64,000 nt of DNA from Bacteroidota bacterium (GTDB taxonomy: Bacteria > Bacteroidota > Bacteroidia > UBA4408), in assembly GCA_963169745.1 (NCBI GenBank), contig CAUJCU010000002.1, positions 434,001 through 498,000 of the forward strand, written 5' to 3'. Shown in pieces: positions 1-60,992 of this stretch. The position numbers and the translations under genes were made by a program. The notes below the pieces were generated by a model, which worked only from the letters and a program-made list of their open reading frames with translations, had not been told where the DNA came from and ran no database searches. Numbering within the stretch: position 1 is the stretch's first letter; each line of letters opens with the position of its first letter.

Positions 1-440
1 AAAATAAATAAACCAAAATCGGTAAGAAGTTTGTTTTCAAATACCAAAGCAATTAAACGTTCCTGCTCATGCATCGTAAAAGGAGGATCGGCAAAAATAA
101 TATCAAATTTTTCTTGCATCTTAGGTAATAGCTGAAACACATCAAAGTGTATAACTTTTATTTGATTGAAACCAAACTGAATGGCTTGCTTTTTGACAAA
201 AGCAGTACATTTAGAAGCATTGTCAACAGCAATAATATTGGACACTCCACGCGAAGCAAATTCAAAACTAATGTTTCCTGTACCGCAAAATAAATCTAAT
301 ACCTTTACCGATTCAAAATCAATTCGGTTTTGCAATATATTAAACAAGCCTTCTTTGGCAAAATCAGTAGTTGGCCTTGTCGGTAATCCCTGAGGCGGAA
401 CTATTTTTTTGTTTTTATGTGTGCCGCTTATAATACGCAA
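1..440 (-). CDS. rsmD: 16S rRNA (guanine-N2)-methyltransferase RsmD, C-terminus beyond window
   Basis: This is a class I SAM-dependent methyltransferase expected to methylate G966 of 16S rRNA. The reading frame is open from position 440 to the window edge (about 146 residues seen). The start is inferred as TTG at 440-438, because translation from there gives the family's usual opening LRIISGTHKNKK, with no ATG nearby in frame. The SAM-binding motif LDLFCGTGN lies near residue 48 and the catalytic-type motif DPPF near residue 121. The start overlaps the 3' end of the upstream DUF3822 gene by 13 bp, which implies translational coupling. The C-terminal part is cut off by the window edge. Confidence 0.9.
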   Translation of the reverse strand, partial: MRIISGTHKNKKIVPPQGLPTRPTTDFAKEGLFNILQNRIDFESVKVLDLFCGTGNISFEFASRGVSNIIAVDNASKCTAFVKKQAIQFGFNQIKVIHFDVFQLLPKMQEKFDIIFADPPFTMHEQERLIALVFENKLLTDFGLFI

Positions 441-1300
441 TGGGCTGCATTTATAATGTTAAAAAAGAAATGACTGGGTAAGGGATTAAATCCTCCGCTA
501 AACTTATAATTTCGGTGGCTACTTATAAACTCTATGTTTCGGATATATTTGTACAATAAACTGTAAACAGTTGATTTTTTCTCGATTTCGCCACACAGCT
601 TTAATGTAATTTCTTCAGGATTAAATTTTAAAGTTTCGTAAGCCATAAGGGTATAGTAAGCCACATCTTCGGTAGATACGTATTTGAATGAATTAAAAAA
701 TACCATTTTATGATTAGCTACAGCCATCAGCTCAAAGTTTCCGTTTTGAATGTGTGCCAAAATAATATTTTCACTGCTGTTTTTATATTCTATCATTCCT
801 TGTGCAATTAGCACCTCAGCGTGATTCAAAAAAGTAACCTTGCCAAAAAGTTTTGCAAAACCCAGAACATAATTATCTGGAACAGCAAATAATAAATAAC
901 TATAAATACTACTAAGCAATCGGAATTCAACTTTCGAATTATCTATAGCACCTACAGTAAATGTTAATATGCTTTGGGCATTGTTTTGGTCAAACAAAGC
1001 CTGAGGAACTAAGGTAAAAGATTCTGAAATTACCACTACTGTTACGGTTTTAAAGGACAAATTGAAAAAAACCGACTCTTTATAATATTTCTCAAACAGT
1101 TCAAAGCTCGTGGCGTAGTTTTGATTGTTCATAAAGTTAATTTGCTCAACGGCTGCGTAGGTCTGGTTTTTATCGTTAATTAAACAACATGATGCGCCTT
1201 TTAAACCTATGCTTATAATAAGATGGTAAGTTAACGGAGTATTTCTTTCCAGTTCCTCATCAATAACGCTTAAAGCCGGTTTTGTAAAAAGTGCTTCCAA
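428..1300 (-). CDS. DUF3822 family protein
   Basis: This 290-residue protein matches what I know of DUF3822, a Bacteroidota family of unknown function that is regularly encoded next to rsmD, as here. No signal peptide or membrane segment is visible, so it is probably cytoplasmic. The start codon is TTG at 1300-1298; an in-frame TAG lies just upstream and the next internal ATG is more than 50 codons in. It is the fourth gene of the ispE-to-rsmD operon. The biochemical function is unknown; the assignment rests on gene context and general sequence character. Confidence 0.75.
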   Translation of the reverse strand: MEALFTKPALSVIDEELERNTPLTYHLIISIGLKGASCCLINDKNQTYAAVEQINFMNNQNYATSFELFEKYYKESVFFNLSFKTVTVVVISESFTLVPQALFDQNNAQSILTFTVGAIDNSKVEFRLLSSIYSYLLFAVPDNYVLGFAKLFGKVTFLNHAEVLIAQGMIEYKNSSENIILAHIQNGNFELMAVANHKMVFFNSFKYVSTEDVAYYTLMAYETLKFNPEEITLKLCGEIEKKSTVYSLLYKYIRNIEFISSHRNYKFSGGFNPLPSHFFFNIINAAHCVL

Positions 1301-1343
1301 GTGTATCTATTTTTGATATGGTTAAATTCTGTAAATTATTTTA

Positions 1344-2069
1344 TTAATAAAATATCATAGTAGCTATAGCCAAAAGCGCACCGGCTATAATAACCATAAA
1401 TTTTTGCATATTAAAACGGTGGTTTTCTGACGACTCAAATAATATAGTTGTTGATATGTGCAGAAATATACCGATAACTACTGCCATAATTTTTTGATAA
1501 TAATTACTTAAATCAAAGGTTTGAACATGATTAAAAAAAGCACTAAACATCATGCCCAATGGGGTCATTAATGCAAAAATACTCAATAAAATTAAACTTT
1601 TGGTTTTTGATATACCGCTTTGTGACAGCAGGCTCATAAGAGCCAAAGCAATTGGAATATTATGGATCACAATCCCAAAAACCAACATATCTGATGTATG
1701 CTCATTATGTGTCCCTCCAACAGGCATACCTTCAAAAAAGGCGTGAATACATAAACTGAGTAACATGGTAAAAGGAATTGCAGCCTTTTCGGAATGGGCA
1801 TGTGCATGAATATGCCCGTGCTCAATTCCTTCTGAAAAATAATCTAAAACAAGCTGCAAAAAAAACCCCAGTAACAAAAATATGCCTATGGAATGGTCGC
1901 CTCCTGCATATACCTCGGGCATTAAATGTAAAGCTGTTATAGAAAAAAGATAAGCCCCGCTTAAGGCTAATAAAAGCTTTAATTTATGGGTATTCCACGA
2001 AAGCATATAAAAAAGCAATCCGCTTAAAATAGCCGATACAAAAATGATTACTGCCTCGGTTATATGCAT
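1344..2069 (-). CDS. ZIP family metal transporter
   Basis: An inner-membrane divalent-metal transporter of the ZIP (ZupT-like) family, probably importing zinc or related ions. The protein is almost entirely hydrophobic segments, with a His-rich loop (GHIHAHAHSEK) between the third and fourth helices and the family's helix-4/5 motifs IHAFFEGMPVG and HNIPIALAL, whose His, Glu and Asn residues line the metal path. I chose the ATG at 2069, 1 bp after the stop of the upstream methyltransferase; a TTG 18 bases earlier (2087) would overlap that gene. It is co-transcribed with ispE and the methyltransferase. The metal specificity cannot be read from the sequence. Confidence 0.88.
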   Translation of the reverse strand: MHITEAVIIFVSAILSGLLFYMLSWNTHKLKLLLALSGAYLFSITALHLMPEVYAGGDHSIGIFLLLGFFLQLVLDYFSEGIEHGHIHAHAHSEKAAIPFTMLLSLCIHAFFEGMPVGGTHNEHTSDMLVFGIVIHNIPIALALMSLLSQSGISKTKSLILLSIFALMTPLGMMFSAFFNHVQTFDLSNYYQKIMAVVIGIFLHISTTILFESSENHRFNMQKFMVIIAGALLAIATMIFY

Positions 2070-2070
2070 A

Positions 2071-2799
2071 CTATTGTTTTTGAACAATCATAATTAGACG
2101 GTCAGAACTTTCGGGGTCAAAAGCATCAAGAGTATAGTTCCCGTATGTTTCTTTTAATACTAACCCAGCACTTTTAAAATAGTTTTCAAAGTCACTCAAA
2201 CCCAGCAAATGTACTTTTTCATGATAATGATGCGTGTGCCCCTTATCGTGTACAGTAATTTCTTTAAAAACATGGTTTTGACGCAACTCCTTATTCCATA
2301 TAAATTGTATATCCTGTATAACTTTGGTTTGCTCCTTAGCCGAAAACTGTTGTTGTATTTTATGGCTATTAAAAAAATCTATTACCAGTGTTCCTCCGGG
2401 TTTCAGGTTTTTTTGAGCAGATTTTAGGGTGTTCAGCTCATCACGACTTGTATTGAAGTAGCCAAAACTTGTAAACAGATTTAAGATATAATCAAAATAA
2501 TTGATCCGAAATGGGAAGCGCATATCATGAACAAAAAAATGCAACTTCTGATGGGCGTTAAGCTGTGCATCGAGAATATTGTTTTCAGATAAATCAACCC
2601 CCGTAACATCAAAACCCTTATCTGCTAAAAATTGAGCATGTCTTCCGCGCCCGCAAGCTAAATCCATAATTCTGCTACCGGCCGGTGGTTGTAGCTTCAT
2701 TAAGAGGTTTTGCATAAAATGATGCGCTTCTTCTTGATTGCGATGACTGTATAGTAAATGATAATAAGGTGAGTTAAACCAATCTTCAAACCATTCCAT
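2071..2799 (-). CDS. class I SAM-dependent methyltransferase
   Basis: A 242-residue cytoplasmic methyltransferase. The SAM-binding motif IMDLACGRGRHAQFLADKG and the following acidic strand end GVDLS lie near residues 43-70. A later LKPGGTLVIDFF segment is the usual post-core strand of Methyltransf_11/25-type enzymes. The substrate is unknown. It lies 12 bp downstream of ispE and directly abuts the ZIP transporter gene, so it is an operon member. No feature ties it to isoprenoid or metal metabolism specifically. Confidence 0.85.
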   Translation of the reverse strand: MEWFEDWFNSPYYHLLYSHRNQEEAHHFMQNLLMKLQPPAGSRIMDLACGRGRHAQFLADKGFDVTGVDLSENNILDAQLNAHQKLHFFVHDMRFPFRINYFDYILNLFTSFGYFNTSRDELNTLKSAQKNLKPGGTLVIDFFNSHKIQQQFSAKEQTKVIQDIQFIWNKELRQNHVFKEITVHDKGHTHHYHEKVHLLGLSDFENYFKSAGLVLKETYGNYTLDAFDPESSDRLIMIVQKQ

Positions 2800-2811
2800 A
2801 AAAAGAATAAA

Positions 2812-3636
2812 CTAATTGAGTACTGTTTCAAAAACGGTAAAATTACTAAAGTAATCTGTGTTTTTAGGATTCCCTTCAAAAATTCCATAAACAGCCGACC
2901 CGCTTCCGGTCATACTGGCATATACAGCACCGCTTTTGTATAAATCATATTTAATCTGGGCAATAATCTGGAAACGCTTCACCACGGCTTCTTCAAATGC
3001 ATTAAATATAAAATGCTTCCATTCGGTAATTGGTTTCTGCATCAGTGATTTTAAACTTTCTCCTTGATCGTTTGGAATTATCAAGCTATATGCCATTGGA
3101 GTACTTATATGAATTGCCGGTTGTACAATTACGATATGCCACCCCTTTAAACTTAAATTCAGTTCTTCAAGTTCTTCTCCCTTTTGGGTAGCTAAAGCTG
3201 GTTGCGGGCGAATAAAAAATGAGCAGTCACTCCCTAATTGTTGGGCGTAGCTTAAGCAATCTTTTTCGGATAAATTTAGAGCAGCTATTTGGTTTAAAGC
3301 CTTAATAAAAAAGGCTGCATCAGAAGAGCCTCCGCCCAAACCGGCTCCAATGGGAATTTGTTTATGTAAATGCACCTGTACTGCCGGTAACAGATAATCT
3401 TGAGCCAGAAGTTGATACGCCTTAACACATAGATTTTCGCGTTGTAAACCGGGTATCTCAATGCCCGTGCTTTTAAAAGAAATAGTGCCTTCTTTTTGTT
3501 CGGCAACAAGATTTACTTCCAGAATATCCGTAAACGGTACCGGATAAAAAACACTTTCAATATTATGAAATCCATCGTTGCGTTTTTGGAGCACACGCAA
3601 GCCAATATTAATTTTACAAGGCGGATAAACAATCAT
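2812..3636 (-). CDS. ispE: 4-diphosphocytidyl-2-C-methyl-D-erythritol kinase
   Basis: IspE phosphorylates CDP-methylerythritol in the non-mevalonate (MEP) isoprenoid pathway. The protein is a GHMP kinase with the opening PPCKINIGLRV, the phosphate-binding loop PIGAGLGGGSSDAA near residues 93-106, and a C-terminal MTGSGSAVYGIF segment. The ATG at 3636 is preferred over a TTG three codons upstream because the family normally starts a few residues before the CKIN motif. About 274 residues is normal length. It is the first gene of the minus-strand operon and is separated from rpmA by a terminator-like hairpin. Confidence 0.93.
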   Translation of the reverse strand: MIVYPPCKINIGLRVLQKRNDGFHNIESVFYPVPFTDILEVNLVAEQKEGTISFKSTGIEIPGLQRENLCVKAYQLLAQDYLLPAVQVHLHKQIPIGAGLGGGSSDAAFFIKALNQIAALNLSEKDCLSYAQQLGSDCSFFIRPQPALATQKGEELEELNLSLKGWHIVIVQPAIHISTPMAYSLIIPNDQGESLKSLMQKPITEWKHFIFNAFEEAVVKRFQIIAQIKYDLYKSGAVYASMTGSGSAVYGIFEGNPKNTDYFSNFTVFETVLN

Positions 3637-3659
3637 GGAATTCAAAAAGAAAGCTACTA

Positions 3660-3696
3660 AAATAAAAAAATCTTTCCCGTTATGAGAAAGATTTTA
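3660..3696 (-). terminator. intrinsic terminator of rplU-rpmA
   Basis: The arms 3667-3676 and 3686-3695 form a perfect 10-bp stem with a 9-base loop. Read on the minus strand the stem is followed by a run of T (the A-run at 3664-3670). It sits about 25 bp past the rpmA stop, so it should end the ribosomal transcript before ispE. Confidence 0.7.
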
Positions 3697-3719
3697 GTTC
3701 TAAAGTGAATAATTTATTC

Positions 3720-3986
3720 TTATGCAGTTGCTTCTATAGGCAATACCGATACAAATGAACGATTGTCTTTTCTGCGCTTAAACTCCACAATACCATTTGT
3801 TAATGCAAACAAAGTATGATCTTTGCCTATACCAACGTTATTTCCTGGATTATGCTTTGTTCCTCTTTGGCGAACAATAATATTACCGGCTAAAGCCGCC
3901 TGTCCGCCATAAATTTTTACACCTAATCTTTTGCTATGACTTTCGCGACCGTTCTTGGAACTTCCCGCACCTTTTTTATGAGCCAT
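3720..3986 (-). CDS. rpmA: 50S ribosomal protein L27
   Basis: L27 is a small basic protein of the large ribosomal subunit whose N-terminus reaches the peptidyl-transferase centre. The sequence is recognisable end to end: [16 protein letters not shown] at the N-terminus, then [19 protein letters not shown] and the [11 protein letters not shown] segment. At 88 residues it has normal length. It begins with MAHKKG, so no N-terminal cleavage extension of the Firmicutes type is present. It follows rplU by 37 bp in the usual rplU-rpmA order. Confidence 0.97.
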
Positions 3987-4023
3987 GTTTTAATTTTTTA
4001 ATTTGAATGAATAAAAATTGGGA

Positions 4024-4335
4024 TTACCCTTTAATACTTTCTACCAAAACTTGAGTTAATTGCTGACGGTGTCCGTTTGATTTTTGGTATCCTTTTCTGC
4101 GTTTTTTCTTAAAAACAATTACTTTATCGTCTTTAAGGTGTTGAATAATTTTGGCGGAAACCTTAGCTCCGCTGATAACTGGGGCGCCAACATTCACTTT
4201 TCCATCGTTGTCAATAAGAAGCACTTTATCAAAATCTACTTTTGAGTTAAGGTCTCCTTCCAAGCGATGTACGTAAAGCTTTTGGTCTTTTTGCACTTTA
4301 AACTGCTGCCCTGCTATTTCTACAATTGCGTACAT
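4024..4335 (-). CDS. rplU: 50S ribosomal protein L21
   Basis: L21 binds 23S rRNA in the large subunit. The 103-residue protein starts [14 protein letters not shown], contains [15 protein letters not shown] in the middle, and ends with the basic [15 protein letters not shown] segment typical of the family. It is the first gene of the rplU-rpmA unit and has a clear Bacteroidota-type promoter just upstream (4365-4394). Confidence 0.97.
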
Positions 4336-4364
4336 GGTATGTGTTTTAAATAATTAATGGGCTG

Positions 4365-4394
4365 CGAAAGTACGCTTTTTTTTGGGTTCTGCAA
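4365..4394 (-). promoter_or_regulatory. promoter of rplU-rpmA
   Basis: Read on the minus strand, TTG (4394-4392) is followed by a 19-base spacer and TACTTTCG (4372-4365). This matches the Bacteroidota -33/-7 pattern (TTG ... TAnnTTTG) with one deviation in the -7 box. The distance to the rplU start is about 30 bases. Confidence 0.65.
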
Positions 4395-4502
4395 AAAATA
4401 TTCTTTCTTGCTTTTGGAAAACAGTCAATTTTAATTAATTAATTGCTGATTATAAGCATTTTACAAAATTTACAAGAAGAAATAAAGAATGCAATCAATC
4501 TT

Positions 4503-40124: not shown

Positions 40125-41372
40125 GTAAAAGCGATGCACCCCTTCGCTTTCGGTTAATTCAGCAAGTTGCACTTGCTGCTCTTTCAAATAACCTTACTGC
40201 ACTTTCAAACCGAGCTAAGCTCTAACAATTAAAAAACACGAAGCGCCCCTTCGCGTTTACAACAAACAAGGAGCAAGTTGTACTTGCTGCTCTTTCAAAT
40301 AACCTACTGCACTTTCAAACCGAGCAAAGCTCTAACAATTAAAAAACACGAAGCGCAGCTTTGCGTTTACCCCACTGTAAAAGCGAAGCTCTGCTTCGCT
40401 TTAGATTAATTCAGCAAGTTGTACTTGCTGCTCTTTCAAATAACCTTACTGCTCTTTCAAACCGAGCAAAGCTCTAACAATTAAAAAAACACGAAGCGCA
40501 GCTTCGCGTTTACAACAAACAAGGAGCAAGTTGTACTTGCTGCTCTTTCAAATAACCTTACTGCACTTTCAAGCCGAGCAAAGCTCTAACAATTAAAAAA
40601 ACACGAAGCACAGCTTCGCGTTTACACCAAACAAGGAGCAAGTTGTACTTGCTGCTCTTTCAAATAACCTTACTGCACTTTCAAACCGAGCAAAGCTCTA
40701 ACAATTAAAAAAACACGAAGCGCAGCTTCGCGTTTACCCCCACTGTAAAAGCGAAGCTCTGCTTCGCTTTAGATTAATTCAGCAAGTTGTACTTGCTGCT
40801 CTTTCAAATAACCTTACTGCACATTCAAACCGAGCAAAGCTCTAACAATTAAAAAACACGAAGCGCCCCTTCGCGTTTACAACAAACAAGGAGCAAGTTG
40901 TACTTGCTGCTCTTTCAAATAACCTTACTGCACTTTCAAACCGAGCTAAGCTCTAACAATTAAAAAAACACGAAGCACAGCTTCGCGTTTACCCCACTGT
41001 AAAAGCGATGCACCCCTTCGCTTTAAATTAATTCAGCAAGTTGTACTTGCTGCTTTTGAAATACCTCCGGCATTATGAAACCGAGCAAAGCTCTAACAAT
41101 TAAAAAAACACGAAGCACAGCTTCGAGTTTACACCTTCACGTAAAAGCGATGCTCTGCTTCGCTTTAATTAATTCAGCAAGTTGTACTTGCTGCACTATA
41201 AAATTCAGCACCTTGTACTTGCTCATTTTAAAATAATCTGTTACACGATGAAACCGAGCAAAGCTCTAACAATTAAAAAAACACGAAGCGCAGCTTCGCG
41301 TTTACAACAAACAAGGAGCAAGTTGTACTTGCTCCTTTTGAAATAAATTGCTGCACTATACCCCACACGTAA
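40125..41372. repeat. palindrome (REP-like) array 1
   Basis: A 1.25-kb non-coding array between the convergent TonB receptor and giant-protein genes. It is built from short hairpins: a ~25-bp element starting GTAAAAGCGAAGC and ending GCTTCGCTTT (first at 40125-40150); the same element inverted, starting CACGAAGC and ending CGCGTTTAC (first at 40237-40260); AGCAAGTTGTACTTGCT (first variant at 40161-40177); and GAGCAAAGCTC (40212-40222). I count about 5 forward and 9 inverted copies. The link TAACAATTAAAAAA recurs at spacings near 110-112 or 140-144 bp; the longer unit carries the extra forward element. Confidence 0.85.
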
Positions 41373-50918: not shown

Positions 50919-51582
50919 GTAAAAGCGATGCTGCGCTTTAGATTAAAGGAGCACCTTGTACTTGCTCATTTTGAAACAACCCTGTAAAAGCGATGCTTTG
51001 CTTCGCTTTAGATTAATGGAGCAAGTTGTACTTGCTGCACTATCAAATAACCTTACTGCTCTACCAAACCGAGCAAAGCTCTATCCATTAAAAAAACACG
51101 AAGCACAGCTTCGCGTTTACACTAAACAAGGAGCAAGTTGCACTTGCGTAGGTTCTGTAAAAGCGATGCTTTGCTTCGCTTTAGATTAATTCAGCAAGAT
51201 GCACTTGCTGCACTATAACCCACACGTAAAATGGAGCAAGTTGTACTTGCTGCACTTTGAAATAACATGCTGCTCTACCAAACCGAGCAAAGCTCTAACC
51301 ATTAAAAAACACGAAGCACAGCTTCGCGTTTACACCAAACAATGAGCACACGTAAAAGCGATGCTTTGCTTCGCTTTAGATTAATTCAGCAAGTTGCACT
51401 TGCTGCACTTTGAAATAACATGCTGCTCTACCAAACCGAGCAAAGCTCTATCCATTAAAAAACACGAAGCACAGCTTCGCGTTTACACTAAAACGTCAAA
51501 ATGAGCAAGTTGTACTTGCTGTACTATAAAATAACTTGCTGCACTATAACCCACACGTAAAATGGAGCAAGTTTTACTTGCT
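50919..51582. repeat. palindrome (REP-like) array 2, left of the transposase
   Basis: The same hairpin families as array 1. Forward GTAAAAGCGATGC elements occur near 50919, 50982, 51157 and 51353; inverted elements occur near 51097, 51310 and 51463. AGCAAGTTGTACTTGCT palindromes and GAGCAAAGCTC units lie between them. Most forward copies have one mismatch in the stem (GCGATGC against GCTTCGC). The last element, AGCAAGTTTTACTTGCT at 51566-51582, ends 44 bp before the transposase start. Confidence 0.85.
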
Positions 51583-51626
51583 TGGAATTAGAACAGCTAT
51601 TATTTTTGAAAATAAAATTCAATACT

Positions 51627-52154
51627 ATGTCAGAAAGTTATAAAATTGGTGAAGATGGTCTGTATTATGTTACTTTTGCTGTTGCAGGTTGGTTGGATGT
51701 TTTTACGAGGAGGATTTATCAAGAAATTTTTACTGATAGCATAAAGTTTTGTCAAAAAAATAAAGGTTTAAATATTTATTGCTTTTGTTTGATGCCCAAT
51801 CACGTGCATTTCATTGCTGATTCTTATGATGGAAGTCTAATTAATACATTACGATCGTTTAAATCGCATACTGCAAAAGCACTGATTGCTGCTATAAGTG
51901 AAAATCCTCAAGAAAGTAGAAAGGAATTATTTTTGCACCAATTTAATTATTTTGGTAAAAAAAGTAAAAACAATGAAAATCAATTTTGGAGGCATGATAG
52001 TCATCCTTTTTACCTTTACAGCAATGCAATGATAGAACAAAAAATAAATTATATTCATAACAATCCTGTTGAAGCAGGTTTTGTAAATGAGCCGCATGAG
52101 TGGAGATTGAGCAGTGCAAATCCGAATTTTGAAATTAAACTTGCTGCACTATAA
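51627..52154 (+). CDS. REP-associated tyrosine transposase (RAYT, IS200-like Y1 fold)
   Basis: A 175-residue HUH single-strand transposase. The metal-binding HUH motif is LMPNHVHF (His59, His61), and the catalytic Tyr is Y142 in INYIHNNPVEAGFV, the signature of the RAYT group. The ATG at 51627 is chosen over an upstream TTG at 51582 that lies in a repeat. The frame is intact. The last codons, giving KLAAL and the stop, are formed by repeat sequence (CTTGCTGCACTATAA), and a REP hairpin begins 8 bases after the stop. It lies inside array 2, so it is the likely enzyme that mobilised or maintains these repeats. Confidence 0.92.
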   Translation: MSESYKIGEDGLYYVTFAVAGWLDVFTRRIYQEIFTDSIKFCQKNKGLNIYCFCLMPNHVHFIADSYDGSLINTLRSFKSHTAKALIAAISENPQESRKELFLHQFNYFGKKSKNNENQFWRHDSHPFYLYSNAMIEQKINYIHNNPVEAGFVNEPHEWRLSSANPNFEIKLAAL

Positions 52155-52875
52155 AACTTCTGTAAAAGCGAAGGGGTGCTTCGCTTTGATTAATGGAGCA
52201 AGTTTTACTTGCTCATTTTGAAATAACCTTACTGCATAAAAAACCGAGCAAAGCTCTATCCATTAAAAAAACACGAAGCACAGCTTCGCGTTTACACCAA
52301 AACGTCAAAATGAGCAAGTTGTACTTGCGTAGGTTCTGTAAAAGCGATGCTTTGCTTCGCTTTAGATTAATTCAGCAAGTTGCACTTGCTGCACTTTGAA
52401 ATAACATGCTGCTCTACCAAACCGAGCAAAGCTCTAACCATTAAAAAAACACGAAGCACCGTAAAAGCGAAGCTGTGCTTCGCTTTCTTTAATTCAGCAA
52501 GTTGTACTTGCTGCACTATAACCCACACACGTAAAAATGAGCAAGTAAAACTTGCTCAATTTAAAATAACATGTTACACTACCAAGCCGAGCAAAGCTCT
52601 AACCATTAAAAAACACGAAGCACAGCTTCGCGTTTACACCAAACAATGAGCACACGTAAACGCGAAGCTGTGCGTCGCTTTAGATTAATTCAGCAAGTTG
52701 CACTTGCTCATTTTGAAATTACTTACTGCACAATAAACCGAGCAAAGCTCTAACAATTAAAAAAACACGAAGCGAAGCTTCGCGTTTACCCTGAATTTCA
52801 AAAATAACATGCTGCACTACCATGCCGAGCAAAGCTCTAGCAATTAATAAACACGAAGCACAGCTTCGCGTTTAC
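52141..52875. repeat. palindrome (REP-like) array 2, right of the transposase
   Basis: It continues the array directly from the transposase 3' end. Forward elements lie near 52162-52187, 52336, 52460 and 52656; inverted elements near 52272, 52614, 52767 and 52852-52875. At about 52452 an inverted element is cut short and fused to a forward one, which looks like a recombination junction. Spacer sequences are themselves repeated, so this is not a CRISPR. Confidence 0.85.
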
Positions 52876-54992: not shown

Positions 54993-56258
54993 ATGATAAC
55001 TAATTTTATTACCTGGGCATTACGAAACAGAATACTGGTATTGCTGATAGCCACAGGGGTAACCCTATACGGAGTTATAGCTGTAAAAAACACCCCGGTT
55101 GATGCCATTCCCGATTTATCGGAAAACCAGGTTATTATTTTAACCGAGTGGATGGGACGTAATCCGCAAATTATAGAAGATCAAATAACCTACCCGCTGG
55201 TAAGTAATTTACAAGGTATTCCAAAAGTTAAAAACATACGGGCCAACAGTATGTTTGGGATGAGCTTTGTATTTGTGATTTTTGATGATGATGCCGAAAT
55301 ATACTGGGCTCGGACGCGAGTTTTGGAGCGTTTAAACTATGCCCAGCGCCTGCTTCCCGAAGGGGTAATACCTACTATGGGCCCCGATGGCACCGGGCTG
55401 GGACATGTATATTGGTACACTTTAAACGCTCCGGGTTATGATTTAGGCGAACTGCGGGCCTTGCAAGACTGGTATGTGCGCTTTGCCTTGCAAACTGTTG
55501 ATGGGGTAAGTGAAGTATCGTCATTTGGCGGCTTTCAGCGGCAGTACCAGGTAGTAGCCGACCCCAACAAACTGCGCTATTACAATATTCCTTTGGTTGA
55601 GTTAAACCGGCAAATAGCCGCCAATAACAACGATGTGGGCGGGCGTAAGTTTGAACAATCAGACATTGGGTATATCATTAAAGGGTCGGGCTACATAAAA
55701 GGGATAAAAGAAATAGAAAACATACCGCTAAAAACGGTTAACGCCAGCCCTATATGTGTAAAAGATGTGGCCACCGTACAAATGGGAGGCGACTTGCGCC
55801 TGGGTATTATTGAAGAAAACGGAGCCGGAGAAAAGGTAGGTGGCATTGTGATTATGCGCTATGGCGAAAATGCGAAAGACCTTATAAAACGGGTAAAAGC
55901 AAAAATTCCGGAAATTGAAAAAGGCTTGCCCCCGGGGGTTACTATTAAAACCGCCTACGACCGATCGGACCTGATTGATGCTACCATTGCCACCTTAAAA
56001 AATGCCGTTATTGAAGAAATCATTGTGGTTGCTTTGGTATTGCTGTTGTTCTTTTTGCATGTGCGTAGTGCCTTAATTGTTATTGTTACCATTCCCCTAT
56101 CGGTACTTATTTCGTTTATCATGATGAGCTGGTTTGGCATTACCTCTAACATTATGTCGCTGGCGGGTGTGGCGCTTGCTGTAGGCGATTTGGTTGATGC
56201 CGGTATTGTGATGGTAGAAAATGCAATGAAATCATTGAGTGAAGAAGTAGAATCATAA
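54993..56258 (+). CDS. cusA: CusA/CzcA-type RND efflux pump, N-terminal part (gene split by stop)
   Basis: The first 421 residues of an inner-membrane heavy-metal RND transporter. It starts normally (first helix at about 10-32, then PVDAIPDLSENQV), covers the first porter domain, and runs through helices 2-4, including the proton-relay Asp of VGDLVDAGIVMVENA near residue 410. Translation then meets TAA at 56256. The following codons continue the same protein in the same frame, so one base change separates the halves. The break falls in the cytoplasmic loop between helices 4 and 5. It could be a nonsense mutation, a sequencing error or a natural two-piece pump. Confidence 0.85.
   Translation: MITNFITWALRNRILVLLIATGVTLYGVIAVKNTPVDAIPDLSENQVIILTEWMGRNPQIIEDQITYPLVSNLQGIPKVKNIRANSMFGMSFVFVIFDDDAEIYWARTRVLERLNYAQRLLPEGVIPTMGPDGTGLGHVYWYTLNAPGYDLGELRALQDWYVRFALQTVDGVSEVSSFGGFQRQYQVVADPNKLRYYNIPLVELNRQIAANNNDVGGRKFEQSDIGYIIKGSGYIKGIKEIENIPLKTVNASPICVKDVATVQMGGDLRLGIIEENGAGEKVGGIVIMRYGENAKDLIKRVKAKIPEIEKGLPPGVTIKTAYDRSDLIDATIATLKNAVIEEIIVVALVLLLFFLHVRSALIVIVTIPLSVLISFIMMSWFGITSNIMSLAGVALAVGDLVDAGIVMVENAMKSLSEEVES
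56256..56258 (+). other. in-frame TAA splitting the RND pump gene
   Basis: Read in the pump's frame, the DNA gives ...EEVES, TAA, KERLMLTNEEREKR... with no frameshift. The family normally reads through this loop. A change of one base in a CAA, GAA or AAA codon would explain it. AAAGAAAGG just before the ATG at 56271 could act as a weak ribosome-binding site for the second half. Confidence 0.85.
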
Positions 56259-56270
56259 AAAGAAAGGCTT

Positions 56271-58166
56271 ATGTTAACTAACGAAGAAAGAGAAAAAAGA
56301 ATAGAAAGCTCGTCAAAACTCATTGGTAAAGCGGTTTTCAACTCCATATTAATAACCTTAGTATCGTTTTGCCCCATCTTGTTTTTAACCGGACAGGAGC
56401 ATAAATTGTTTTCGCCATTGGTATTAACTAAAACCTTTGCTATGATAGGTTCTGCCTTAGTAGCCCTGTTTTTGGTTCCGGTACTGATGTCGTTGTTTTT
56501 AAAGGGCAATGTGCTTCCGGAACGTAAGCACCCGGTATCGCGCTTTTTTTTGTGGTTGTATAACCCCATTATACACTGGTGTTTAAAATGGAAAAAAACG
56601 ACTATAGCCTTAAGTTTGGCTCTGGTGCTGGGTAGTGTGCCGCTGGTGCTCAACTTAGGGTCAGAATTTATGCCCCCCTTAGATGAAGGCTCTATTTTAT
56701 TTATGCCCGTTACCTTACCCGATATATCAAATGCCGAAATAAAACGCATTATGCAGGTGCAAGACAAACTTATTTTGAGCATTCCGGAGGTGCAAAATGT
56801 ACTGGGTAAAGCCGGCCGCGCCAATACCGCAACCGACAATGCCCCCATGAGCATGATTGAAACCATTGTTTTGCTCAAACCACAGAAAGAATGGCGCAAA
56901 GGGCTTACCAAAGAAGATATTATTAACGAACTAAATGCCAAGCTGCAAATTCCGGGTGTTATTAACGGGTGGACACAGCCCATCATTAATCGTATTAACA
57001 TGCTGGCTACCGGCATACGAACCGATGTGGGGGTAAAAATTTACGGCCAAAATTTAGATACCATAAATGCTTTGGCCCAACAGTTTAAAAAAGAATTGCA
57101 AGGTATTGAAGGGGTTAAAGATTTGTATGTGGACCCCATTATAGGAGGGAAATATGTAGATATTGCCATTCGTAAAGATGAGATAGGGCGCTATGGTTTA
57201 AGTGTTGATGAGGTGAATATGTTTATAGAAACGGCTTTGGGTGGTATGAATGTAACTACGACTATTGAAGGCAGGCAGCGCTTTTCGGTAAATGTTCGCT
57301 TTGCACAAGACTTTCGCGATAAAATTGACAAGTTGAAAAAGCTTCAAATTCAAACTATGGATTATGGGCCCATTCCCTTATCAGCAGTAGCTTCAATAAA
57401 AATTACCGAAGGCCCGGCTATGATTGCATCAGAAAATGCCATGCTGCGCGGAACCCTGCTTTTTAATGTTCGTGATCGCGATTTGGGAAGTACCGTAAAT
57501 GAAGCCCGGCAACGACTGCAAGAGGTTGTAAAAAAATTGCCCAAGGGCTATTTTTTAGACTGGAGCGGGCAGTACGAAAATCAGGTTCGTGCCAAAGAGC
57601 GCTTAACCCTTATTATTCCTTTGGTGCTGGTTATTATTATGGTAATTCTGTACTTTACTTTTTACTCGATGCGTGAAGTGCTTATTGTGCTCACCGCCAT
57701 ACCGGTTGCCTTGGTGGGCGGGGCTTATTCGTTGCACTTTTATGATGTAAATCTTTCGGTAGCTGTGGCCGTAGGTTTTATTGCCCTGTTTGGAGTAGCC
57801 GTTGAAACCGGAGTGCTTATGCTGGTGTACATGAACAATGCTTTACATAAGAAAACTTTGCGTTGTAGAGCCGAAAACAAAGCAGTGCTGCAACACGATG
57901 TGGAAGAAGCCATATATGAAGGGGCTGCCCTGCGTTTAAGGCCAAAACTGATGACTGTGCTGGTAGATATTATTGGGCTTATGCCCGTACTCATGGCTAC
58001 CGGAACCGGTAGTGATGTGATGAAACCCATTACCATTCCGTTTGTGTTTGGGCTGGTTACCTCAACCCTTTTTGTATTGATTGTACTGCCCGTATTATAC
58101 GCCCTGGTACGATCGTATGAATTAAAGAAGAACGGAACCTTAATAGTTCGTGAATTTGAAGACTAA
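56271..58166 (+). CDS. cusA: CusA/CzcA-type RND efflux pump, C-terminal part
   Basis: The remaining 631 residues of the pump: helices 5-6 (GKAVFNSILITLVSFCPILFL), the GSEFMPPLDEGSILFMP segment, the second porter and docking domains, and helices 7-12. Together with the first part (421) it makes about 1056 residues, the normal size. A Met at the GGMNVTT position and the NMLATGI segment agree with Cu(I)/Ag(I)-type CusA rather than CzcA, which has Lys there; this is from memory of the families, without an alignment. The ATG at 56271 would be the restart codon. The TolC gene follows 4 bp after the stop. Confidence 0.85.
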   Translation: MLTNEEREKRIESSSKLIGKAVFNSILITLVSFCPILFLTGQEHKLFSPLVLTKTFAMIGSALVALFLVPVLMSLFLKGNVLPERKHPVSRFFLWLYNPIIHWCLKWKKTTIALSLALVLGSVPLVLNLGSEFMPPLDEGSILFMPVTLPDISNAEIKRIMQVQDKLILSIPEVQNVLGKAGRANTATDNAPMSMIETIVLLKPQKEWRKGLTKEDIINELNAKLQIPGVINGWTQPIINRINMLATGIRTDVGVKIYGQNLDTINALAQQFKKELQGIEGVKDLYVDPIIGGKYVDIAIRKDEIGRYGLSVDEVNMFIETALGGMNVTTTIEGRQRFSVNVRFAQDFRDKIDKLKKLQIQTMDYGPIPLSAVASIKITEGPAMIASENAMLRGTLLFNVRDRDLGSTVNEARQRLQEVVKKLPKGYFLDWSGQYENQVRAKERLTLIIPLVLVIIMVILYFTFYSMREVLIVLTAIPVALVGGAYSLHFYDVNLSVAVAVGFIALFGVAVETGVLMLVYMNNALHKKTLRCRAENKAVLQHDVEEAIYEGAALRLRPKLMTVLVDIIGLMPVLMATGTGSDVMKPITIPFVFGLVTSTLFVLIVLPVLYALVRSYELKKNGTLIVREFED

Positions 58167-58170
58167 CGAT

Positions 58171-59445
58171 ATGAAAAAGAAAATAAAATACACGCGTATT
58201 GCTGCCCTGCTGCTTTTGTTTGCAGGGTATGCTGTTGCCGGCTTTGCACAGCCTCAAAGTCTGGAAAACATTTTACAAGAAATTGAAAAGAACAATATGA
58301 ATTTAAAAGCCTATGACGCCCAAGCGAAAGCCTATGAGAGCTATACCCAAGGCGCTCGTGCCCTTGATGCCCCTGAAATTGGGGCCGGCCTGTTTATGAC
58401 CCCCTATCAAGCACACCTGTGGAAAGCCGATAAGGCTATGGGCAGTTCGGGTATGGGTTCCTTTATGGTATCGGCCGAGCAGATGTTTATGAATCCTAAG
58501 AAAAGGCAAGCTAATGCCAGCTATATGGGCAGCATGTCGGCTATGGAACAGCTTATGAAAGAGAGCATGAAGAATGAGCTTTTTTCGATGGCCAAAATGA
58601 ATTATTATAACTGGATTATTTTGAAAAAGAAAACCCACTTGCTGAAAGAAAGCGAAAGTATATTAAACTATTTGATAGCCTCTACCGAACTGCGCTATAA
58701 ATATGGTATGGACAAACTAAATGCGTACTATAAAGCCAAAGGGATGCTGGGTGATATACAAACCATGATGGCCATGACCGAACAAGAAATAAGCGAAAGT
58801 ATTATTGGGCTTAATACCTTAATGAACAGGCCTAAAAATACCTTGTTTGAGATAGACACCCTGATACAATTTAAAGATTATGAAAAGGAGCCCACAGACA
58901 GCAGCCGAATCATGCAGTTTCGAAGTGATTATAAGCAATTAAAACAACAAGAATCTATTTTAAAGCTAAAGCAAAGCTATGAACAAAGCAAACTACTGCC
59001 CGATTTTGGCATAAAATACGACCACATGGTAGCATTTGGGAAACAACCCCAACAGTTTAGTTTGATGGCTATGGTAAGCATCCCCTTAGCGCCTTGGTCG
59101 GCAGCTATGACTAAGAGCACGGTAAAGGGATTAGCGTATGAACTGGACGCTGCACGCCTGAAACAAGGTGCCTGGCTGAATACCATAAACGGAAATTTGG
59201 AGCAACTTAAAGTTAAAATAAAGAACAAAAAACAACAAATTGAGTTATCTGAAAAAATGGTTATTCCGGCCATGAAACGCAACTATGAAACCGCCCTGCT
59301 GGGTTATGAACAAAATACCGAAGAACTTTTTATGGTGTTAGATGCCTGGCAAAGTTTAAAGCTTATGCAGTTAACGTATATTGATCAGCTTATGGCATTG
59401 GCCGAATTACAAGTTCAATATGAAAATGAATTAGAAATAAAATGA
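58171..59445 (+). CDS. cusC: TolC-family outer-membrane efflux channel
   Basis: A 424-residue outer-membrane factor for the RND system. A signal peptide (about 1-26, ending GFAQ) is followed by two long, helix-rich OEP repeats (for example [20 protein letters not shown] and [21 protein letters not shown]) separated by short beta segments. The ATG at 58171 is chosen over 58150, which lies in the end of the pump gene. Its stop overlaps the start of the first adaptor gene (ATGA). Central part is unusually Met-rich (about residues 80-140), which may relate to Cu/Ag. Confidence 0.88.
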
Positions 59446-60992
59446 TGAAAAGAATTGGAATTTTAGGGGTGCTTATACTGCTGCTCAGTTCATGCCACCT
59501 CTTTACAAAAGACGAAAAGCAACAGCATGAAGCTATGAAAGCTCCTTCAAATGTGCTTTACACCTGCCCTATGCACCCCGAAATTGTACAAGACCATCCG
59601 GGCACTTGCCCTTTGTGTAAAATGGATTTAGAGCAAAGTGCAGCCGTAACACAGGCCCCTGTTTACACCTGCCCCATGCACCCCGAAATTGTGCAGGACC
59701 ATCCGGGCACCTGCCCCTTGTGTAAAATGGATTTGGAACAAAGCGCAGCCGTAACACAGGCTCCCGTTTACACTTGCCCCATGCACCCCGAAATTGTGCA
59801 AGACCACCCGGGCACCTGCCCCTTGTGTAAAATGGATTTGGAGCAAAGCGCAGCCGTATCACACGCTCCCGTTTACACCTGCCCCATGCATCCCGAAATT
59901 GTGCAAGACCACCAGGGCACCTGCCCCTTGTGTAAAATGGACTTGGTTCAAAGTGTACAGCAGCAGCACCATGAAACTGAATTTGACCGGCTTACTAAAT
60001 CGGCCAATCAATACGTAATGGCTGCGGTAAACACCGTAGAAGTGAAACAAAAGACTTTAACAGCAGAAATTCCGGTAACGGGTAAAATAAGTTATGACCC
60101 GCGCGAAGTTTTTACCTTATCAGCCAAAGTATCGGGCCGGGTAGAAAAGCTGTATGTAAAATACCTGTACCAGCCCATAAGCAAAGGGCAAAAACTAATG
60201 GAGCTTTACAGTAAGGAACTGCTTACCGAACAAGAAAACTATATTTACTTGCTTAAAAACGACCCCAGCAACCAAACACTGCTCAAAACTGCCGAAGAGC
60301 GTCTTCTTTTACAAGGCCTAACACCCGAACAAATTCACAAATTAAAAAGCGAGAAAAAGGCCATTCCCTATATTACGGTCTATAGTCCAATTTCGGGGCA
60401 TTTACATAACTTAAGAGGCGAAAATTTTGCCGGAAGTTTGGCTATGAACAATACCGAAAACCTATCTGAAGCACTTATACGCGAAGGGATGTATGTGCAA
60501 AAAGGGCAAGCTGTTTTTTCTATTTACAACACCCATAAATTATGGGCTTTATTAAACCTTTATGCTCCTCAAACAGCGCTGGTAAAAGCCGGACAAGAAG
60601 TGCAACTAAATGTTGACGGGCGTGTTGTTCCGGGAAGCTATAAAATTAATTTTATTGAACCCGAAATTCGAAGCGGGCAAAATATGCTTACAGCACGCGT
60701 ATATATTTCAAACGAAAATGGCTCTATAATGATTGGAGCTAATGTAAAAGGCCAAATTATGGCCGGTGAAAAAACCGGATTTTTTATTCCAACATCATCG
60801 ATAGTTGATTTGGGGAACAGACAAATGGTGTTTCTTAAAGAAAAAGAAGTGTTTCGGGCTCATCAGGTACAAACCGGAAGTGTACTTAACCACATGGTTG
60901 AAATTATATCGGGCCTAAAAGAACATGATTTGATTGCAGAAAATGCCCAATTCTTAATAGACAGCGAAAGTTTTATTAAAACCGATTATTAA
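59442..60992 (+). CDS. cusB: RND periplasmic adaptor (CusB-like) with four tandem heavy-metal-binding modules
   Basis: A 516-residue lipoprotein adaptor. The lipobox is LLSSC (Cys18). Residues 40-179 are four copies of a 35-residue heavy-metal-binding module, [20 protein letters not shown] plus [10 protein letters not shown]; each has two Cys-rich ends and a Met-His pair. One copy is usual. The rest (about 190-516) is the standard adaptor: barrel-sandwich, helical hairpin and membrane-proximal beta domains ([30 protein letters not shown]). It overlaps the TolC gene by 4 bp and precedes a second adaptor gene by 7 bp. Confidence 0.93.
59559..59978 (+). repeat. four tandem 105-bp repeats inside the adaptor gene
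   Basis: The TAC codon opening each module lies at 59559, 59664, 59769 and 59874, a strict 105-bp (35-codon) period. Copies 1-3 differ mainly at synonymous sites; copy 4 diverges at its end. The near identity shows recent duplication or ongoing homogenisation. Confidence 0.95.

Follow-up and report, generated by a model that had tools for sequence, protein, structure and literature searches.

The RAYT gene of the stretch analysed here (64,000 nucleotides of Bacteroidota DNA, from here on the window) and the palindromes packed around it very probably represent one family of transposable elements that move as single-stranded DNA, the short palindromic members having arisen through internal deletion of a full element and having been amplified locally. 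The gene (51627-52154, plus strand) encodes a TnpA_REP-like Y1 HUH transposase of 175 aa plus stop. It is situated within an array of palindromes (array 2) that starts with GTA at 50919 and finishes with TAC at 52875, made up, on both sides of the gene, of units bounded by P1 and P1' hairpins with their heads outward, along with partial units. Units of the same type form another array (array 1, about 40125-41371), between convergent genes and about 10 kb away from array 2, where a previous reading of the letters without database searches (the sequence-only reading) had placed it.

The intact Y1-type RAYT with Tyr142 reported in that reading is confirmed. The Y1 HUH core with its single tyrosine is present, as H59 and H61 (codons of H59-V60-H61 at 51801-51809) and Y142 (52050-52052), the distance between the HuH and Tyr motifs being 81, and the motifs themselves NHVH and YIHNNP, the latter not of the Y..NQ type of IS200/IS605. 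The protein matches Pfam Y1_Tnp (4e-6) and, above the curated cut-off of 80 bits, the NCBIfam model NF047646, ‘REP-associated tyrosine transposase’ (5.9e-26, 91.1 bits), while NF033573 (IS200/IS605) gives 16.8 bits against a cut-off of 55. The closest structural match of its AlphaFold2 model (pLDDT 90.5) is 4er8_A, the E. coli RAYT-REP complex (Z 15.5, rmsd 2.3 over 137 residues), with IS608 and ISDra2 ranking below (Z 10-12); as a phmmer search of the PDB sequences returned no match, the kinship with 4er8 rests on the predicted fold. A search of PHROGs produced one weak match only, to a family of unknown function. Among 20 relatives, W121 is invariant, followed by R in the window RAYT and by K, Q, T or others in the relatives, and so are S162 and S163 after the core. 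The source genome (G000) carries one copy of this RAYT, and its only other Y1 match is a broken transposase (locus L052, 4757-5062; contig C17, about 86.8 kb) with the motif YIKNQKQHH, resembling TnpA_Y1 subclass 1.2. The same locus also encodes (132-4424) a methylase-like ORF of 1430 aa with several in-frame inserts, for example TPLSRGAGGV and SPLERGFRGVSS, resembling a further family of palindromic repeats lodged in coding sequence. Downstream of the RAYT, the window encodes a CusA-like heavy-metal RND pump (54993-58166), in two same-frame ORFs separated by one TAA (56256-56258), and a CusB-like adaptor (59442-60992) with four tandem, nearly identical metal-binding segments.

As to the palindromes, their density is far beyond chance: P2 (GAGCAAGTTNNACTTGCT, at most 2 mismatches) has 44 matches on both strands, against 0.06 expected from dinucleotide shuffles, and P1 (ACGAAGCACAGCTTCGCGTTTAC, at most 3 mismatches) has 20, against 0.00, in support of the dense array originally described around the gene. 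The units follow the order P1, 14 nt, P2, 32 or 33 nt, P3, 13 or 14 nt and an inverted P1, for a total of about 135 bp, with the P1 heads pointing outward. P1 reads GTA followed by AAAGCGAAGC-nnn-GCTTCGCTTT, its right-end form being AAACGCGAAGC-nnn-GCTTCGTGTTT, and P2 and P3 read GCAAGTnnnACTTGC and GAGCAAAGCTC, respectively. Viewed from outside, both ends share a common plan, of a P1 hairpin, a 14-nt AT-rich spacer and a second small hairpin, which is P2 at the left end and P3 at the right. One complete unit, of 135 bp, is found at 51352-51486 (plus strand), with its left-end P1 hairpin starting at 51352, P2 at 51388-51404, P3 at 51436-51450 and the right-end P1' hairpin at 51464-51486. Three more complete units, all on the plus strand, are recognized by their architecture and their mapping on the full element described below, at 50984-51120 in array 2 and at 40377-40513 and 40745-40880 in array 1. 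On folding, only GTA remains unpaired as the head, the fourth base, A, pairing with T, and the proposal of GTAA as a new tetranucleotide head was dropped for this reason. The proposed difference from the canonical REPs does stand: the flanking structures lack GT[AG]G, and no unpaired GTAG or GTGG is present at the hairpin foot. Units are more similar within arrays (0.886) than between them (0.798), the difference of 0.088 comparing with a maximum of 0.038 in 1000 permutations, suggesting that the arrays grew or were homogenised locally.

The RAYT copy of the window is itself incomplete at its ends. Its left end includes P2 (51566-51582, plus strand) and no P1 hairpin, the head ACGTAAAA being joined directly to TGGAGCAAG, and its right end is broken by another unit. 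The last codons of the gene (LAAL and stop, 52139-52154, plus strand), ACTTGCTGCACTATAA, are at once the right half of P2 and the start of the right end, so that the left and the right ends share ACTTGC at the deletion junction. An uninterrupted counterpart is presented by a genome of the same genus, G001, in which (locus L070) the same two ends, left and right, enclose an 88% identical RAYT. With this 677-bp element (ORF 98-625) as the reference for mapping, the RAYT region of the window aligns to positions 37-621. With the left P1 missing and the right end broken in the window copy, the element is known in its entirety only from G001, which is a MAG. Isolated copies from three genomes form a series in which the outer ends are constant, the inner breakpoints vary, and the middle is absent. 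One copy, L118 in genome G003, retains positions 1-34 plus 522-677 of the element; in G001, L114 retains 1-109 plus 536-677, and the copy upstream of the RAYT at L070 retains 1-85 plus 574-677; L053a of the source genome retains 1-90 plus 578-677. Further along the series are L053b (1-91 plus 596-677), L056b (1-53 plus 596-677) and L054 (1-53 plus 603-677), and the units of the window close it (1-52 plus about 603/609-677; 603-677 for the unit at 51352-51486). One more copy, at L050, is truncated on the right. Codons for the C-terminus of the RAYT survive at L070 (1285-1332), L113, L114, L115 and L118.

Judged from these sequences, P1-P2 is the left end and P3-P1' is the right end of the RAYT element. 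As the isolated copies with internal deletions retain both ends and, in most cases, the last RAYT codons, we regard the array units as, most plausibly, MITE-like descendants of the element, which possess, as MITEs do, both ends in common with a transposase-bearing element and a deleted interior. The connection between the gene and the repeats, originally drawn from proximity and similarity, is thus extended by the ends they have in common and by the RAYT codons within deletion copies of the relatives. G001 also provides an example of a RAYT element in multiple copies. A sister element of about 680 bp, with the ends CCCCACCTGAGCG...CGCTGAGAGGG, is present there in four copies that are 90-96% identical (L107, L109, L110 and L111, on contigs C117, C8, C3 and C2, respectively, as listed), some of them broken, the one at L111 being partial (about 490 bp).

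The full element, complete in G001, is about 680 bp long and is organized as GTA, hairpin P1, P2, the RAYT gene, P3, the inverted P1' and TAC. We propose that internal deletions sparing both ends would generate short, non-autonomous copies, most of them with the last RAYT codons, the end product being the P1-P2-P3-P1' units of about 135 bp. The RAYT of the window, which may still be active, should bind P1-type hairpins in single-stranded DNA, probably as a dimer and on hairpins that are extruded, with Tyr142 predicted to cut beside the head. The choice of strand would be dictated by the wobble at pair 7 of the stem, counted from the loop, along with the GTA head: read as G.T on one strand, the wobble becomes A.C on the opposite one, and so it could set the strand that is used. 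The right-end hairpin at 52853-52875 (minus strand) has G.T at pair 7 and reads, on that strand, GTAAACGCGAAGC TGT GCTTCGTGT; the predicted folding energies of the right-end hairpin are -9.4 kcal/mol for the G.T strand versus -7.4 kcal/mol for the A.C strand. The prediction of binding is made by analogy with the established case of the E. coli TnpA_REP, which binds the folded REP on one strand only, requiring GTAG and a bulge in the middle of the stem, and cleaves at CT near the REP (PMC8266576). The short copies would then have multiplied in place to form the arrays, with recombination or slippage between repeats as the probable cause.

Matches to P1 (at most 2 mismatches) and P2 (at most 1 mismatch) occur in about ten places on six contigs of the source genome (C2, with the two arrays, C9, C10, C13, C17 and C19), which is the genome-wide count that the sequence-only reading had called for; P1 alone (at most 2 mismatches) has 59 matches genome-wide, mostly in a few arrays. 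In the loci examined, the clear copies are intergenic, except for the overlap with the 3' end of the RAYT. The repeats thus form about ten locally amplified clusters and are not scattered like the classical REPs, and of the REP/RAYT system initially envisaged, the RAYT with its cognate repeats is retained, while the classical dispersed REPs give way to MITE-like clusters. Among 60 relatives, P1 is limited to G000, G001 and G003, all of the same genus (0/57 others); G000 and G001 carry the window RAYT type, G003 carries its remains, and G002, also of this genus, carries neither. A search of G001-G003 for empty sites matching the window arrays, a sigma-factor locus (L054) and a PNPase-like locus (L050) found none that was clean, as the neighbouring genes differ: the orthologous genes at these loci are 67-81% identical, and their order is different. 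No short target-site duplications were seen, by eye, beside the isolated copies. A run of C before the head (CCCA/GTA ... TAC/TGGG) was considered as a target site; it is found at several isolated copies and not at all of them, and is not claimed.

The geometry of the hairpins is not restricted to the genus. From 155 Bacteroidota RAYT loci, 133 testable clusters (at most 80% identical) were obtained, and in 68 of them the same hairpin is found at both flanks of the gene, in inverted orientation (0 with shuffled flanks), a matching pair being absent, at the cut-off used, in the remaining 65. When the ends with a single non-Watson-Crick pair are considered, this pair is a G.T at exactly pair 7 from a 3-nt loop in 34 of them, the G being on the 5' arm and the stems differing otherwise. 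The clade of the window is characterized by this 3-nt loop, a 6-bp upper stem and the G.T wobble at pair 7, and all 23 pair-7 RAYTs fall within one 34-row clade (SH-aLRT 89) of a quick tree of the 68 RAYTs, while a second clade has T.G at pair 3-4, and a third has 4-nt loops and no wobble. The position of the wobble changes 5 times on this tree versus 19.2 times when shuffled (0/500), and it follows the RAYT phylogeny. The consensus from 38 ends of the window's clade is GYTRGC-G-C-N5-TNN-N5-G-T-GC, with the head and a loop T conserved even though the wobble alone was the anchor, and the right end of the window matches this plan (GTAAAC-G-C...G-T-G). A second small hairpin follows the first at 7 of 36 ends, compared with 0.37 for shuffled sequences.

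Within the window arrays, pair 7 is G.T in 14 of 15 right ends and a normal G-C in all 13 left ends, suggesting that the wobble is unnecessary there for the persistence or amplification of the units; several isolated left ends do have G.T at this position. The asymmetry between the left ends that lost the wobble (40377-41160) and the right ends with G.T recalls the Y and Z forms of the E. coli REPs. When genomes were scanned with the clade consensus, counting copies in which 4 or more of the 5 upper-stem pairs are formed, such copies were found in 11 of 17 pair-7 genomes versus 4 of 29 others (p = 0.0008), a comparison that is partly circular, since the matches include some copies from which the consensus had been derived. 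Of 20 genomes without a RAYT match, 4 still have the clade motif in paired copies, suggesting that repeats can outlast the gene, and the co-presence expected in relatives holds for P1, found only with the RAYT or its remains, but is not strict for this wider motif. In four genomes (G149, G081, G157 and G192), between 1 and about 12 clade hairpins occur with no RAYT match at E 1e-15, as possible orphan repeats.

It is tempting, although we put it forward with some reserve, as a proposal falling slightly short of an even chance, to view a whole RAYT lineage of the Bacteroidota as self-copying, IS-like elements with MITE repeats, in which each clade might read its hairpins by the position of the wobble, at pair 7 in the clade of the window, at pair 3-4 in the second clade and, in the third, by no wobble and a 4-nt loop. 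If true, the specificity of RAYTs would reside in the geometry of the stem and not in its sequence, and, with the clade hairpins reduced to a short, fixed-wobble consensus, this can be tested with oligonucleotides.

Of the other interpretations, the classical REP/RAYT arrangement, in which a domesticated, non-mobile RAYT does no more than copy REPIN doublets in trans (the situation in E. coli and Pseudomonas) and is seated in a cluster by chance, agrees with the single RAYT copy of the source genome, with the resemblance of the inverted, head-out doublets to REPINs and with the statement by Bertels et al. that RAYTs occur as single copies and are not self-copying (PMC8049555). We consider it unlikely, given that the repeats contain RAYT codons, that the deletion series has constant ends and that about ten clusters are found instead of hundreds of scattered copies; moreover, the four copies of the related element in G001 go against the statement itself. 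As to unrelated tandem repeats, expanding through slippage or recombination, into which a RAYT landed by chance, homogenisation within arrays and the interruption of the window RAYT copy by array units would both be expected, and slippage is indeed a likely mode of array growth. Its strong form is already refuted by single, isolated intergenic copies with both ends and RAYT 3' codons, by the RAYT of another species flanked by the same ends and by the strict co-occurrence of the repeats and the RAYT in the genus, leaving this scenario very improbable overall. Least probable of all, to the point of being hardly credible, is that the arrays belong to some other hairpin system, such as integron attC sites, CRISPR, terminators or structured RNA. 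The palindromes are regular and intergenic, and array 1 does lie between convergent genes, but array 2 does not, the stretches between the hairpins are conserved and are not unique spacers, an Rfam scan of 39-54 kb gave no match up to E 0.1, and the units derive from the RAYT element.

The preferred interpretation, of a RAYT element with its own deletion derivatives, bears on how REPs arise and on how DNA is recognized by RAYTs that belong to neither group 2 nor group 3, with the repeats traceable to the RAYT element itself via intermediates that still hold RAYT codons, and the four copies in G001 bear on the view of RAYTs as domesticated. The phylum is not new for RAYTs, since Quentin et al. 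(2018; PMC6006769) had already reported a Bacteroidetes group with atypical repeats, and the window RAYT is a new member of this group, TnpA_Y1 (TnpA_REP) subclass 2.6, or group 5 of Bertels. According to that paper, subclass 2.6 is mostly from Bacteroidetes, and its repeats are ‘atypical’, without GT[AG]G, and were found by manual inspection. In common with it, the window RAYT has a Bacteroidetes host, the motifs NH[LIV]H and YIH[QN]NP, an SS after the core, a similar HuH-Tyr distance (81, versus about 82) and atypical flanking hairpins with further copies elsewhere in the genome; the W motif differs, being WR versus the WQ consensus. The main text of PMC6006769 does not describe the geometry of a 3-nt loop, 6 bp and a G.T at pair 7, the two-hairpin ends or the deletion derivatives, and in the literature searched (for Quentin et al., 2018, the main text), we found neither the pair-7 rule nor its match with the RAYT tree, and no repeats bearing RAYT codons.

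RAYTs flanked by inverted REPs are already known (PMC2817692), and the REPtrons and REPINs with GTAG REPs of Gammaproteobacteria (Nunvar, 2010, PMC2817692; Bertels and Rainey, 2011) share with the present family a RAYT between two inverted REPs, the head-out doublets and repeat and RAYT trees that track each other. Unlike these, with their unpaired GTAG and hundreds of scattered copies, the present family has a GTA head followed by a paired A, remains of RAYT coding sequence in the repeats, sister elements that are self-copying, and about ten clusters. TIRtrons, with their TIRYTs (Di Nocera et al., 2013; PMC3733652), are similar in having a Y1 transposase bounded by long inverted repeats, in part double-palindromic, which occur also as dispersed families, dimers and clusters, but they are not linked there to the Bacteroidota subclass 2.6, to a pair-7 wobble or to deletion derivatives with RAYT codons. 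The IS200/IS605 elements (IS608, ISDra2) have the same HUH/Y1 fold and subterminal hairpins, but in these the tyrosine motif is Y[IV]ENQ and the subterminal hairpin ends are on one strand, while in the element described here the motif is YIHNNP and the ends are inverted.
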